From contig JAKLKU010000003.1 of assembly GCA_023150475.1 (NCBI GenBank), forward strand, positions 62,001-126,000: DNA of 64,000 bases, read 5' to 3'. The stretch is from Planctomycetota bacterium (lineage in GTDB: Bacteria; Planctomycetota; UBA1135; GCA-002686595). The stretch's first letter is position 1; every line of letters begins with the position of its first letter. The position numbers were made by a program, and so were the translations under genes. Below the pieces are notes generated by a model. That model saw only the letters and a list, made by a program, of their open reading frames with translations, was not told the DNA's origin and ran no database searches. This document shows, one piece after another, positions 54,675 through 60,410 of this stretch.

Positions 54675-55148
54675 ATGCAGACCCTCGAACAGATCCGCAC
54701 GCTCTCCGACGATCGCTTCCTGAAGATCTACGAATCGCTCGCGCAGCAGGGCTTCGGTCCGCTCGACGGCGAGGTCGCGAAGCAGCTCAAGTTCCGGCCG
54801 CAAGCGATCAAGAAGTTGCCGATGGCGATGCGCGCCAAGAAGGCGAGGGCGCTCCTGCTCGCGCACAAGAACGTCGAGCTCGCCTACGAGTTCCTCGGCA
54901 CGTACCTGCTCAAGGACCACAAGGAGCTCGTCACCGGCTTCCTCGACGCGACCGGCGTCGCGCACGAGAACGGGATGATCAACGACGAGCCCGGCAACTT
55001 GCCGGACGCCGCGAAGATCGCCGACGCGGTGAAGGAGCTCGACGGGAAGTTCGACAAGGACGACGTCACGGCGTACCTGGCGATCGCGGCGCAGCAGTGG
55101 CCCGACGTCAAGACTCTCGAGCCGCTCTGGCGCTCGCGCCTCGGTTGA
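54675..55148 (+). CDS. Soluble helical protein of unknown function
   Basis: Encodes 157 residues, Lys/Leu/Ala-rich, mostly helical, without signal or Cys. Segments such as LKFRPQAIKKLPMAMRAKKAR and AYEFLGTYLLKDHKELVTGFLDATG look folded and conserved-like, but I recognise no family. The last 41 bases overlap the end of mutM on the other strand, so the two transcripts are complementary at their 3' ends. Confidence 0.75.
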   Translation: MQTLEQIRTLSDDRFLKIYESLAQQGFGPLDGEVAKQLKFRPQAIKKLPMAMRAKKARALLLAHKNVELAYEFLGTYLLKDHKELVTGFLDATGVAHENGMINDEPGNLPDAAKIADAVKELDGKFDKDDVTAYLAIAAQQWPDVKTLEPLWRSRLG

Positions 55149-55980
55149 GGCTGCGCGGCTGGCAGCGGCGGCAGAAGTGCGTGCCGCGTTGGCCGACGAA
55201 CGTCTTCACGATCGGCGCTCGACAGACGACGCACGGCTCGCCTTCGCGGTCGTAGACGCGGAACTCGTCCTGGAACCCGCCCGGCTTGCCTTCGGGCGTG
55301 CGGTAGAACGTGTCGAAGCTCGAGCCTTCGCGCGCGATCGCGGCCGTGAGGACTTCGCGGATCGCCGCGTGCAAGCGCGCGGCGGCCGCACGGTCGACGC
55401 GAGCGGAACTGCAGAGCGGGTGCAGCCGCGCGCGAAAGAGCGACTCGTCGACGTAGATGTTGCCGAGGCCGGCGACGAAGCTCTGGTCGAGCAGCAACGG
55501 CTTGAGCCGGCGCTTGCGTGACTCGAGCGCCGCGTGGAAGCGCTCGACGTCGAACGCGGCGTCGAGCGGCTCGGGCCCGAGGTCGCGGAAGAGCTCGTCG
55601 AGCGTCTCCACGAACCACATGCGACCGAACTTGCGCACGTCGTCGAACGTGAGCTCGCGCCGATCGTCGAGCACGAGCCGCACGCGCAGGTGCGGGCTCG
55701 TCGCGCGACTGGCGCGCTCGACTTGGAGCCTCCCGGTCATCCGCAGGTGACACACGAGATGCCCGGCGGGCTTGCCGCGCCGTTCGAGATCGATCACGAC
55801 GAACTTCGCGCGCCGCCACACGCGGACGCAACGCCGCCCGACGAGCGTCTGCACGAAATCCGCGACTCGCGGCGCTGCGATCGTCCGCGCCCAGAGCACC
55901 TCGCCACCGCGGATCGTGCGCCCGACGAGCTCTGGCGCCAGCAAGCGCGCGACCGTTTCGACCTCCGGGAGCTCAGGCAT
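55108..55980 (-). CDS. mutM: Formamidopyrimidine-DNA glycosylase
   Basis: Encodes 290 residues. The mature N-terminus PELPEVETV provides the catalytic Pro2 and Glu3. LVCHLRMTGRL, RLVLDDRRELTFDDVRKFG and the helix-two-turn-helix DQSFVAGLGNIYVDE follow. The C-terminal zinc finger is CVVCRAPI...FCRRCQP. It removes 8-oxoguanine and other oxidised purines and nicks the strand. It lies 11 bases after the ABC ATPase gene on the same strand and may be transcribed with that transporter. About 20 residues follow the zinc finger. Confidence 0.96.
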   Translation of the reverse strand: MPELPEVETVARLLAPELVGRTIRGGEVLWARTIAAPRVADFVQTLVGRRCVRVWRRAKFVVIDLERRGKPAGHLVCHLRMTGRLQVERASRATSPHLRVRLVLDDRRELTFDDVRKFGRMWFVETLDELFRDLGPEPLDAAFDVERFHAALESRKRRLKPLLLDQSFVAGLGNIYVDESLFRARLHPLCSSARVDRAAAARLHAAIREVLTAAIAREGSSFDTFYRTPEGKPGGFQDEFRVYDREGEPCVVCRAPIVKTFVGQRGTHFCRRCQPRSLNRGASARAARES

Positions 55981-55991
55981 CGCGACCTCGC

Positions 55992-56747
55992 TCAGAACGA
56001 GTGCGTGACGCCGAGGAGCCGGTACAGCCGGGCCTTCGTTTCGGCGTACTCCGGAGCGTCGATTTCGCGCGGGTGGGGCGCGACGATCGGGACGATCTCT
56101 GCGATGCGTCCGGGACGCGGGCTCATCACGACGACGCGATCGGCGAGCTGCATCGATTCTTCGACGTCGTGGGTCACGAAGAGGATCGTCATGCCCTCCT
56201 CCTGCCAGATGCGCAGGAGCTCGGCGCGCATCTTGAGGCGCGTCAGCGAGTCGAGCGCACCGAGCGGCTCGTCCATGAACACGACGTCCGGCTTGACCGC
56301 CAAAGCGCGTGCGACCGCCACACGCTGGCGCATGCCGCCCGACAACTCGGACGGGTACGTCTTCTCGAAGCCCTTGAGCCCGACGAGGTCGATGTAGTGC
56401 TGGATGCGATCGTGCTGCTCATCGCGCCCGAGTTTGCGGAGCCCGAGCGCGACGTTGTCCCACACCGACGCCCAGGGGAACACGCCGTACTCCTGGAAGA
56501 CGAAGACGCGGCGGGAGTCGGGTCCCTCGACAGGGGCACCGTCGATCGTCACCGTCCCCGACGTGGCGGTCTCGAAACCGCCGATGATGTTCATCAACGT
56601 CGATTTGCCGCAGCCCGATGGACCGAGCAGGCAAACGAACTCGCCCGCCGCGACGGTCAAGTCGACGTCTTGTAGGACGACGAGCTCGTCGTTCTTGCGT
56701 TGGAAGACCTTATTCAGCCCACGAACGACGATTTTCGGTTCAGCCAT
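55992..56747 (-). CDS. ABC importer ATP-binding protein (nitrate/taurine type)
   Basis: Encodes 251 residues. Walker A LGPSGCGKST, Q-loop VFQEYGVFPW, signature LSGGMRQRVAVARAL, Walker B VVFMDEPLGALD and the switch His (FVTHDVEES) are complete. The DLTVAAGEFVCLLGPSG form is that of the SsuB/TauB/NrtD group. It powers the importer whose permease and binding protein are encoded just upstream. Gap to the permease gene is 15 bases. Confidence 0.95.
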   Translation of the reverse strand: MAEPKIVVRGLNKVFQRKNDELVVLQDVDLTVAAGEFVCLLGPSGCGKSTLMNIIGGFETATSGTVTIDGAPVEGPDSRRVFVFQEYGVFPWASVWDNVALGLRKLGRDEQHDRIQHYIDLVGLKGFEKTYPSELSGGMRQRVAVARALAVKPDVVFMDEPLGALDSLTRLKMRAELLRIWQEEGMTILFVTHDVEESMQLADRVVVMSPRPGRIAEIVPIVAPHPREIDAPEYAETKARLYRLLGVTHSF

Positions 56748-56762
56748 CGCAGAGGACGTCGC

Positions 56763-57635
56763 TCAAGCGACGTTCGAGAAGCCCCAGCGCACTTCGTCGA
56801 GCTTCTGGAGCTGGCGCATGCCGAGATCGAGCAGGATACCGAGCACACCAAGACAGACCATCGCGCCGCACACGCGTGCATAGTTGTTGCCGTTGCGTGC
56901 GTCGGTGATCACGTAACCGAGCCCGGATTGCACCGCAATCATCTCCGCGGCGACGATCACCATCCACGCGATCCCGAGCGCAAGGCGCAAGGAGCCGATG
57001 ATCTGCGGCAGGGACGCCGGGAACACCACGTAGCGGAAGAGTTCCGTGCGCTCGAGGCCGAAGTTGCGCGCGGAGCGGACGTACACGCTCGGGATCGAGT
57101 GCACAGCGGTGTACGCGCCCGTGACGATCGGGAAGATCGTCGCGATGAAAATTAGGAAGATCGCAGACGCGTCCTCGACGCCGAACCACAGGATGGCGAC
57201 GGGAATCCACGCGATCGGCGAAATCGGTCGCAGCCCCTGGGCGAGCGGGTTGACTGCGCGGAAAGCTCGCGTCGACCAACCCATCCAGAGCCCGAGTGGC
57301 GTGCCGATCAACACGGCAAGCCCGAACCCGATGGCGACCCGGTAGAGACTGGCGACGGTGTAGCGGAGCAACGTGCCGTCCTGGAGCATGCGTCCAAGCT
57401 CCAGCGCCGTCTGCCCCGGCGTCGGGAACACCTCGAGCAGCTTGACGGTGCCCGTCGCCGGGTCTCGCAACTCGTACTTCTTCAGGTCACAACCGAACTG
57501 CCAGAACGAAACGAACACTGCAAACGTCGCCAACGGCAAGACGATCTGCTGCGCACGTTCCTTGAGGAGTCGCGAGCCGAAGAAGACCGTCGCCGCGAGC
57601 GCGACGGTGATGAAGGGCCAGAGCTCGTATCTCAC
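56763..57635 (-). CDS. ABC importer permease (SsuC/TauC type)
   Basis: Encodes 290 residues from the GTG at 57635, which overlaps the stop of the binding-protein gene (GTGA). Six or so membrane helices are present. The cytoplasmic EAA-like loop reads SARNFGLERTELFRYVVFPASLPQIIGSLRLALG, which docks the ATPase. The family imports nitrate, sulfonates, cyanate or similar small anions. Substrate is decided by the unusual binding protein encoded next door. Confidence 0.93.
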   Translation of the reverse strand: MRYELWPFITVALAATVFFGSRLLKERAQQIVLPLATFAVFVSFWQFGCDLKKYELRDPATGTVKLLEVFPTPGQTALELGRMLQDGTLLRYTVASLYRVAIGFGLAVLIGTPLGLWMGWSTRAFRAVNPLAQGLRPISPIAWIPVAILWFGVEDASAIFLIFIATIFPIVTGAYTAVHSIPSVYVRSARNFGLERTELFRYVVFPASLPQIIGSLRLALGIAWMVIVAAEMIAVQSGLGYVITDARNGNNYARVCGAMVCLGVLGILLDLGMRQLQKLDEVRWGFSNVA

Positions 57636-58753
57636 TTCTTGCCGAGCGCCGCCAACTCTGCTTCCGTCGGCATCGGGATGTCCTTGAAAGGAATGGACAC
57701 GTTCAGCAGGTCGGGAGCGAAGCGCGTGTCGCAATACTCCTCGAACTGCATGCGTTTGGGGATGACGCCGGTCTCGACGGCGAGGTCCATGATCTCGTCG
57801 AAGGTGTCCTTCGGCGGTTTCAGGTCGGTGTAGGAGACGCGATCGAGCGGCTTCGTCAGCACGTACTCGAGCAGCGCCGGATCTTGGTTGTAGAACATCT
57901 TGCCGACGACGACGGCGGCCTGCTTGCGGTGTTCGGCGCCGGAATCGCGGTCTTCGTCGAGCCATTTGCCCGACGCAGCGATGCCGTTGACCAGCTCCTG
58001 CACGAGCTCGGGTCTCTCGTTGATGACCTCTTGACGCACGACGAGCACGCAGGAGATGAAGTTCGGCCAGAGGTCCTTCATGAAGTACAGCACGCGGCCG
58101 TACCCACCGATCTCCGCCTTCGCGCAGTGCGGCTCTCCCACGATGTACCCATCGACGGCCTTCGACGCGAGGGCGGCGGCGTGGTCGGGCGGCGGCGTCT
58201 CGATCAGTTGGATGGAGTCCGGCGCCATGCCGTTCTGCTTCATCATGCGCTTCATCAGCAGATTCTGATTCGAGAACCGACTCGGGATCGCCACCTTCTT
58301 GCCGGCAAGATCCGTGAACGTCTTGATCTCGCTGTCCTTGCCGACGACGAGCGCGCTGCCGTCACGGTGCCCGAGGTAGCAGATCTTCACCGGCACGCCG
58401 TCGGCGGCGAGCTTCATCGCGAGCGGCGCGATCATGAACGTCGCGTCGATCTTGCGCGCGATCAGCGCTTCCTTCATCGAAGCGAAGTCGCCGAAGCGTT
58501 GCGGGCCGAACACCGTGCCCTTGTCGGAGTGTTGGGTGACCCAACTGGTCACCGGGCAGGTGAGGTGTCACGTCACCGGCAGGAAGCCGACCGTGAAGTT
58601 GTCCCTCACGGCGATCGGCTCGCCCTTCGCGTCGGTCGGCACCGCGGCCGGGACCGATTCGATCACCGAGCTCTTCGGTGCGTTGAGCCAGCGGTTCGCG
58701 GCCCACAGGCCGACGACCAACACGACGGCGACGATCAGGACTTTCAGCTTCAT
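57632..58753 (-). CDS. ABC importer substrate-binding protein; in-frame TGA, candidate selenoprotein
   Basis: Read through one TGA (58568-58570) this is 373 residues, normal for the NMT1/SsuA/NrtA-like binding proteins. Residues 1-~25 are a membrane anchor or signal (VLIVAVVLVVGLWAA). The domain starts FTVGFLPVT-U62-HLTC66P and continues DATFMIAPLAMKL, YLGHRDGSALVV, AIPSRFSNQNLL and KDLWPNFISCVLVV with no other disruption. As I recall, relatives have Cys at position 62 (TCHLTCPVT). A hairpin of SECIS type starts 14 bases after the TGA. Downstream codons are fully conserved in style, and the permease overlaps the stop codon by 4 bases, both arguing that the whole frame is expressed. Alternatives are a recent nonsense mutation or a sequencing error; translation could otherwise restart at the GTG at 58552, leaving a protein without signal. 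Confidence 0.8.
58535..58553 (-). promoter_or_regulatory. Candidate bacterial SECIS hairpin
   Basis: Coding-strand order: TGA, 14 bases, GGTGACC, loop AGTTG, GGTCACC. The 7-bp stem is perfect; the apical loop begins 21 bases after TGA and has G in its second position. Bacterial SECIS elements are described as small hairpins directly downstream of UGA with a G in the first two loop positions, which this fits. Confidence 0.6.
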
Positions 58754-59079: not shown

Positions 59080-59478
59080 ATGAACCTGCGAATCGATCCC
59101 GCGAGCCCCGAGCCGATCTTCGAGCAGATCGTCTTCCGCGTGAAGAACGCGGTCGCGCAAGGCGAGCTCGGCGGCGGCGACCGGCTGCCGTCCGTGCGCG
59201 AGCTCGCCCGCGACCTCGCGATCAATCCGAACACGGTCGCACGCGCCTACGAAACGCTCGAAGCCGCAGGCGTGATCGTGCGCCGGCAAGGCGCGGGTTG
59301 TTTCGTCAGCGAGCGCGGCTCGGGCCTCGCCACGAGCGAACGCAGACGCCGGCTCGACGAACTCGTCGACCGCCTGGTCACCGAAGGCTTCCACCTCGGA
59401 TACGGCGCGCGCGAGCTGCGCGACGCGCTCTCCGAGCGACTCTCCGCCAACCCACTGCCCAGCAAGAGGGACGCATGA
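59080..59478 (+). CDS. GntR-family regulator, YtrA subfamily
   Basis: Encodes 132 residues, the short YtrA form: a winged helix-turn-helix at residues ~8-75 (FEQIVFRVKNAVAQGEL; RLPSVRELARDLAINPNTVARAYETLEAAG) followed by only ~50 residues, too short for a ligand domain. Members repress their own operon with an ABC exporter, which is exactly what follows. The palindrome at 59053 sits in the promoter. The stop overlaps the ATPase start (ATGA). Confidence 0.93.
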   Translation: MNLRIDPASPEPIFEQIVFRVKNAVAQGELGGGDRLPSVRELARDLAINPNTVARAYETLEAAGVIVRRQGAGCFVSERGSGLATSERRRRLDELVDRLVTEGFHLGYGARELRDALSERLSANPLPSKRDA

Positions 59479-60410
59479 CGCTGCCGATCCGTTTCGACGA
59501 CGTGCACCGCTCGTTCGGCGAGAAACCGGTGCTTCGTGGACTCACGTTCACCGTGCGTCCCGGCGAGGTCTACGCGCTGCTCGGCCGCAACGGCGCGGGC
59601 AAGACGACGGCGATGCGCATCCTGCTCGGCTTCCTCGCGCCGCTCGGCGGCAAGAGCGAGCTGCTCGGCTGCGACAGTCGCCGCCTCACGCCGCAAGTCC
59701 GCGCACGCGTCGGTCTGGTCTCCGAAGGACACGCGCTCTACGGCTGGATGTCGGTCGAAGAGGTCCTCGCGTTCGAAGCCGGCACCCGTGCGCGCTTCGA
59801 GCTCACGAAGGCGCGTGCGCTGCGCGAGCGGCTCGGTCTCGATCCCCGCGCGAAGGTCGGCACGCTCTCGCGCGGACAACGCGCGCAGCTCTCGTTGCTC
59901 GCCGCGACCTGCGGCGAGCCGGAAATCTTGGTGCTCGACGATCCCGCGATGGGGCTCGACGCCGTCGTGCGCCGCGACTTGCTCGGCGTGATGATCGACT
60001 TGCTTTCGGACACCGGCGCGAGCGTGCTCTTCTCGACGCACATCCTCTCCGACGTCGAACGCATCGCGGACCGCATCGGGATCCTGCACGGCGGCCGTCT
60101 GCTGGTCGACGCGACGCTCGACGACTTGAAGGGCCGCGTCGACACGTGCTTCGTGCCGAACGGCGAGCGCGCGGCCCTCGAACGCGACGTCCCGCGATGC
60201 CTCGCCGCGAAACCGCGCGTCGGCGGGCACGAGCTCTTCCTGGTCGACGTCGGCGACGACACGCGGCGCGCGCTGGTCCGGTTTGGCGCGCAGGCACCGG
60301 CGCGCCGGGCGCCGGCGCTCGAGGACCTGTTCGTCGAACTGACCGCGGACGCGCGCCCGATCGGTGCTGGCGCATCGACCGCGCAGGAATCGTTGGAGGT
60401 GCTGCGATGA
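59475..60410 (+). CDS. ABC exporter ATP-binding protein
   Basis: Encodes 311 residues. Walker A LLGRNGAGKTT, Q-loop region LVSEGHALYGWMSVEE, a signature of the form LSRGQRAQLSLLA, Walker B ILVLDDPAMGLD and switch His FSTHILSD are intact. This is the CcmA/YtrB-like group that pairs with large two-domain permeases for drugs, bacteriocins or lipids. The C-terminal ~90 residues are the usual extension. It is coupled by 4-base overlaps to the regulator before it and the permease after it. Confidence 0.93.
   Translation: MTLPIRFDDVHRSFGEKPVLRGLTFTVRPGEVYALLGRNGAGKTTAMRILLGFLAPLGGKSELLGCDSRRLTPQVRARVGLVSEGHALYGWMSVEEVLAFEAGTRARFELTKARALRERLGLDPRAKVGTLSRGQRAQLSLLAATCGEPEILVLDDPAMGLDAVVRRDLLGVMIDLLSDTGASVLFSTHILSDVERIADRIGILHGGRLLVDATLDDLKGRVDTCFVPNGERAALERDVPRCLAAKPRVGGHELFLVDVGDDTRRALVRFGAQAPARRAPALEDLFVELTADARPIGAGASTAQESLEVLR

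Follow-up and report, generated by a model that had tools for sequence, protein, structure and literature searches.

The window analysed here is a stretch of 64,000 nucleotides from a Planctomycetota bacterium (assembly GCA_023150475.1, contig JAKLKU010000003.1, positions 62,001 to 126,000). Its minus strand carries an ATP-binding cassette (ABC) transporter operon in which the gene for the substrate-binding protein is interrupted by a TGA codon. We find that this TGA is almost certainly decoded as selenocysteine (Sec) and that the protein is very probably an importer subunit; taken as a whole, a Sec-bearing importer subunit is quite likely. The features are as follows.

57632..58753, minus strand: gene of the substrate-binding protein, 373 residues with the predicted Sec at 62 (read-through translation, Pfam NMT1_2, AlphaFold2)
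58568..58570, minus strand: in-frame TGA, codon 62, likely Sec (TGA/Cys exchange at this codon)
58536..58552, minus strand: hairpin GTGACC-AGTTG-GGTCAC resembling a Sec insertion sequence (SECIS), loop 21 nucleotides (nt) past the TGA; counting a seventh pair, it spans 58535-58553
56763..57635, minus strand: ABC permease, GTG start (best NCBIfam model SaoP, 165.7 bits, cut-off 295)
55992..56747, minus strand: ABC ATPase (best NCBIfam model SaoA, 257.8 bits, cut-off 360)

With the TGA read as U, a single frame runs from the ATG at 58753 to the stop at 57632-57634, codon 62 being its sole internal TGA in the context VGFLPVT-U-HLTCPVTSWVT. The gene also ends in TGA. The Pfam domain NMT1_2 spans residues 53-278, across codon 62, with an E-value of 4.1e-30, and both sides of the TGA belong to this one domain. 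A hydrophobic helix occupies residues 2-24 at the N-terminus, and the AlphaFold2 model reaches a predicted local distance difference test score of 91.9. The original prediction, made from the sequence of the window, had described a full-length frame broken only by the TGA, and the read-through translation together with the domain match across the site bear this out. The overlap that it had noted between the permease start and the stop of the binding-protein gene is also real, since the permease frame, from its GTG onward, shares 4 bases with the end of the binding-protein gene.

Relatives of the protein reveal a strict exchange at this codon. A protein search scored 5191 relatives, and among the best 120 all 85 proteins that cover the site have Cys at residue 62, as the original prediction had stated for relatives. 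In the remaining 35, the window's own protein included, the annotated start lies downstream of the site (at residue 68 or 72 in 34 of them). A six-frame search of 392 Planctomycetota genomes, with the gene called at E≤1e-60, recovered it in 26, and codon 62 could be aligned in all of them (20 TGA, 5 TGC and 1 TGT). A scan of GTDB contigs with one pattern that has Cys at the site and one that lacks it kept 80 of 233 relatives; given these patterns, the share of TGA in that set is probably too low. The 80 named loci have TGA in 41 cases and TGC/TGT in 39, with no other codon; an ACG pattern match in L058, found besides the true TGA of that locus, was a false match and was dropped. A further search, covering 61 relatives, yielded 30 loci, of which 28 include the site (21 TGA and 7 Cys). 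These three locus sets partly overlap. An alignment of homologues at residue 62 had been named beforehand as able to overturn the prediction, and only Cys or TGA was found wherever the site was reached. Both forms occur in the window's own genus, with TGA in G000 and G397 and Cys in G398 and G399, the G398 copy being of a diverged VVDW type. The same TGA recurs across dozens of assemblies, one of which is a complete genome (Planctomycetes bacterium Pla163, L063, same as G383), and the residues N-terminal to codon 62 stay conserved in relatives. One of the 41 TGA loci has two tandem gene copies, both with TGA. Such a tandem pair of substrate-binding genes lies at L090:5986-8293 in a Thermoanaerobaculum metagenome-assembled genome, with TGA at the Sec site in both and without a model hairpin at -7.5.

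The absence of Sec machinery was another finding that had been said to speak against Sec, and a search of the window's genome recovered all of it: a tRNA-Sec (72.7 bits, anticodon tca), SelA (497 bits), SelB and SelD (326.3 bits). The SelD is of the Sec type, with a TGA of its own. Among the 20 phylum genomes with the TGA form, SelB scores over its cut-off in 20/20, while SelA, SelD and tRNA-Sec are each present in 19/20. Among the six with the Cys form, G270 lacks SelA, SelD, tRNA-Sec and an over-cut-off SelB, G268 lacks an over-cut-off SelB, and the other four have the full set. tRNA-Sec was also found in the genomes of L090, L097, L106, L087 and L063 and, with stricter filters, in 231/392 phylum genomes.

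The hairpin that follows the TGA can be compared with the bacterial SECIS model given in a 2026 review (PMC13188914), a model that has a loop of 3-9 nt with a G in the first two, a stem of 4-16 bp, a spacing of 16-37 nt and an energy ≤-7.5. The window hairpin fits, with the loop AGUUG, 7 bp, a spacing of 21 and an energy of -11.2. Most TGA genes share the form GTNACC-AGTTG-GGTNAC with the loop 21 nt from the TGA, and all six pairs form in 43/49 distinct TGA sequences versus 3/41 Cys sequences. When synonymous codons are re-drawn, model hairpins would be expected in 12.2 of the 49 TGA genes and in 2.9 of the 41 Cys genes, whereas 44 and 6 are observed, respectively. Cys forms have mostly lost the hairpin. 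In TGA genes with Ser-Trp at residues 70-71 this serine is encoded by AGT in 44/44, compared with 41/603 serine codons elsewhere in the 49 TGA genes and 1/5 Cys genes with Ser-Trp at these residues. Likewise, the wobble pair 21-33 is complementary in 44/44 such TGA genes (C-G in 37, G-C in 7) versus 3/5 Cys genes. Most other hairpin pairs are fixed by the encoded peptide. In L087, where the peptide is VVDWTT, a hairpin forms at the same spot with different letters. In an alignment of 35 sequences chosen from the TGA set with diverged ones excluded, 99.5% of cells pair, and in five cells both partners are changed; none of 500 shuffles matches its paired share, its double-change count or its covariation score. 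In the Cys-form gene at L052:6187-6234 all six pairs are kept and AGC replaces AGT in the loop, and by the look of this retained hairpin it is as if Sec had been lost recently.

Several observations weigh against this picture. Only one of the six pairs changes on both sides, a pair count reached by 295/500 shuffles, and sliding the alignment by +3 still gives a covariation score of 0.072 (0.094 for the real one). Five of the 49 TGA sequences have no model hairpin at -7.5, namely L050 (-6.0) and, from Acidobacteriota, L090 twice, L097 and L106. The minimum-energy fold of the window's own 45 nt consists of two other hairpins (-13.8), with a shuffle z of -1.19. G150, an assembly 84% complete, carries the TGA form, and neither SelA nor SelD nor tRNA-Sec was detected in it. 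Finally, the SECIS model accepts a strong hairpin after the terminal TGA (57632-57634) too (-14.2, spacing 31), which is a warning on the use of this model in GC-rich genomes. The model is therefore weak evidence for a single gene, and it is the comparison across genes that carries weight.

Since the TGA stands exactly at the Cys position of relatives and has a conserved hairpin behind it, it is likely decoded as Sec, and the machinery, the TGA/Cys exchange and the hairpin all support the insertion of Sec that the original prediction had put forward. SelB with Sec-tRNA would read the hairpin and insert Sec at codon 62. The codon might instead be a nonsense mutation or a sequencing error, with a 306-residue downstream frame or nothing made. 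The downstream database starts among the best 120 homologues would agree with this, but the same TGA is present in dozens of assemblies including a complete one, the residues ahead of the site are conserved, and a protein begun downstream would lack the N-terminal helix and the first strand, so that such an accident is scarcely conceivable. It is also extremely improbable that suppression or an altered genetic code puts a different amino acid at the TGA. A leaky stop would keep the frame open just as well, but TGA also ends the same gene, the Sec machinery is present, Cys is the only alternative observed at the site, and the hairpin accompanies the TGA forms. A pseudogene, a sequencing error and a code change were accordingly rejected on the recurrent TGA, the terminal TGA, the Sec machinery and the conserved upstream residues.

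The profile match, the fold and the adjoining permease and ATPase all fit an ABC substrate-binding protein of the NMT1_2 / NitT-TauT type, and fold and profile both indicate kinship with the SsuA, TauA, NrtA and CmpA binding proteins. The best match in fold and in sequence is 3un6, the zinc-bound structure of an ABC binding protein from Staphylococcus aureus (23% identity). 3un6 is presumably the product of SAUSA300_0175. PMC5020093 calls this gene a nitrate transporter. The three genes of the operon occur together in 76/81 loci (the 80 GTDB loci and the window). Against an importer stand the five loci without the full operon: in L052, L067 and L105 the stretch stops at the binding-protein gene or shortly beyond it, L102 has only the permease and L101 neither partner. 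Could the protein be an enzyme of the same fold that uses Sec/Cys as a nucleophile, like the desulfinase DszB? The frequency of the complete operon and the nearest folds, all of which are transport proteins (3un6, NrtA, CmpA, TauA and SsuA), make this very improbable.

The invariant U/C62, H129, E207 and C235 align with His, His, Glu and Cys of the zinc-bound 3un6, in which the equivalents of His129, Glu207 and Cys235 are kept. From this match of four residues with a zinc-bound homologue, metal or metalloid binding by Sec is our leading guess, although we would put a ligand of this kind at somewhat less than an even chance. In this fold, Sec62 would sit in the loop that connects strand 1 to helix 1, lining the ligand cleft, and could form with His129, Glu207 and Cys235 a site for a soft metal, a metalloid or an organometal. 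The bound cargo would then be handed to the importer, and Sec might give higher affinity or speed than Cys does. The full proposal, a multi-phylum family that has changed from Sec to Cys or back on at least nine occasions and uses the selenolate as a first-shell ligand to scavenge such cargo rather than as a catalyst, is put forward tentatively. Two points count against its metal part: the correspondence with 3un6 is one of alignment, and no neighbour pointing to a metal was seen in the sampled flanks. Alternatively, the same selenoprotein may use Sec62 and Cys66 as a redox pair (a selenenylsulfide) that senses the redox state or reduces the ligand instead of holding a metal. C66 is invariant (68/68 alignment rows) and four residues from U62, most uncharacterised selenoproteins are expected to be redox proteins, and TsoA, listed with the motif LULAxC, has the same U-x3-C spacing (PMC13188914). 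However, H63, H129, E207 and C235 are as invariant as C66, no TsoA model is found among the NCBIfam matches of the binding protein, and zinc-bound 3un6 has His where Sec/Cys62 stands and Leu at 66, so that a U-C pair is no general feature of the fold family. We regard a redox pair as rather doubtful. Selenium itself was considered as the cargo of the importer and rejected, no link to the sel genes having been seen; these lie on other contigs.

The original prediction had also known of no described selenoprotein of this transporter family. For the broad kind this does not hold, as SaoX, SaoB and SaoP had already been predicted; for this particular family it does, in the open papers that were searched. 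The count of selenoprotein families and subfamilies in the review stands at 119 (PMC13188914), of which at least SaoX, SaoB, SaoP and BtuF are ABC-linked. SaoX (NF040735) is, like the protein studied here, a predicted Sec-containing ABC substrate-binding subunit, in its case of the Sao system. Our protein scores 57.4 bits against its cut-off of 300, aligned only from residue 92, and the motif UxP listed for SaoX (PMC13188914) differs from UHLTCP, so that profile score and listed motif set the two apart. SaoB (NF040727) shares a Sec in a substrate-binding protein, but its motif CUxxT (PMC13188914) is different and the binding protein has no NCBIfam match to it at E 0.001. For SsuA (TIGR01728) the score is 124.7 against a cut-off of 163.5. 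Filing under SaoX, SaoB or SsuA was thus discarded. As SaoP and SaoA are the best models of the permease and the ATPase, both under cut-off, the transporter may be a cousin of Sao. Being far under the SaoX cut-off and without a SaoB match, the binding protein would be, as predicted from its sequence, a new selenoprotein family of the ABC-linked kind with known cousins. The family is not described in the open PMC literature searched, partly by noisy listings, a scope outside which lie the supplementary S9 Table of PMC4807772 (two Planctomycetes) and the primary Haft papers. Nor does it appear in the passages looked up in PMC13188914, PMC12013277 (main text), PMC4807772, PMC5020093 and PMC5322559. 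An earlier description may possibly exist outside this literature.

Planctomycetota carry TGA forms, and so do three records from Acidobacteriota (L090, L097 and L106). Cys forms occur in both of these phyla as well as in Verrucomicrobiota, Bacteroidota, Myxococcota, Armatimonadota and Ignavibacteria. With the site masked, a quick tree of 89 proteins requires no fewer than 9 changes between Sec and Cys, versus 29.6 with shuffled labels. Close relatives can differ in carrying the Sec or the Cys form, the hairpin being mostly retained with Sec and lost with Cys, and this offers a natural experiment on why cells bear the cost of Sec. If our reading is right, a common and often mis-annotated family (see the 35 downstream starts) would be added to the prokaryotic list, suggesting that Sec can serve in capturing solutes, a function for which few selenoproteins are listed (PMC13188914). 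Strain Pla163, with its complete genome and TGA form, makes the Sec reading testable.

Beyond the permease and the ATPase, flank clustering of the 81 loci detected no neighbour that recurs in more than a small number of them. Neighbour profiling was a sample of 20 flanking frames searched against Pfam and 10 against NCBIfam (3 shared), with a crude choice of frames that included antisense ones. A MutM-like gene, named by eye (55108-55980 in the window), lies beside the operon in 9/81 loci, and a small-protein gene (54675-55148) in 10/81. Both also occur in distant branches (L083, L087 and L088), which perhaps reflects shared gene order only. In L065, L069, L070 and L073 a formate dehydrogenase alpha subunit is located downstream and convergent to the transporter (profile run on L065 alone); the L065 gene is split in two frames, perhaps at a Sec codon of its own. 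In two Phycisphaerae, hutH and hutU for histidine breakdown follow the Cys-form operon (L096:8731-12121 and L109:8630-11885), an adjacency that is a possible hint to the ligand. Cys-form Acidobacteriota operons L085, L103 and L124 have two permease genes. In the window, a short frame resembling a GntR-type regulator (by eye) and an ABC ATPase lie divergent from the operon at 59080-60410 on the plus strand.
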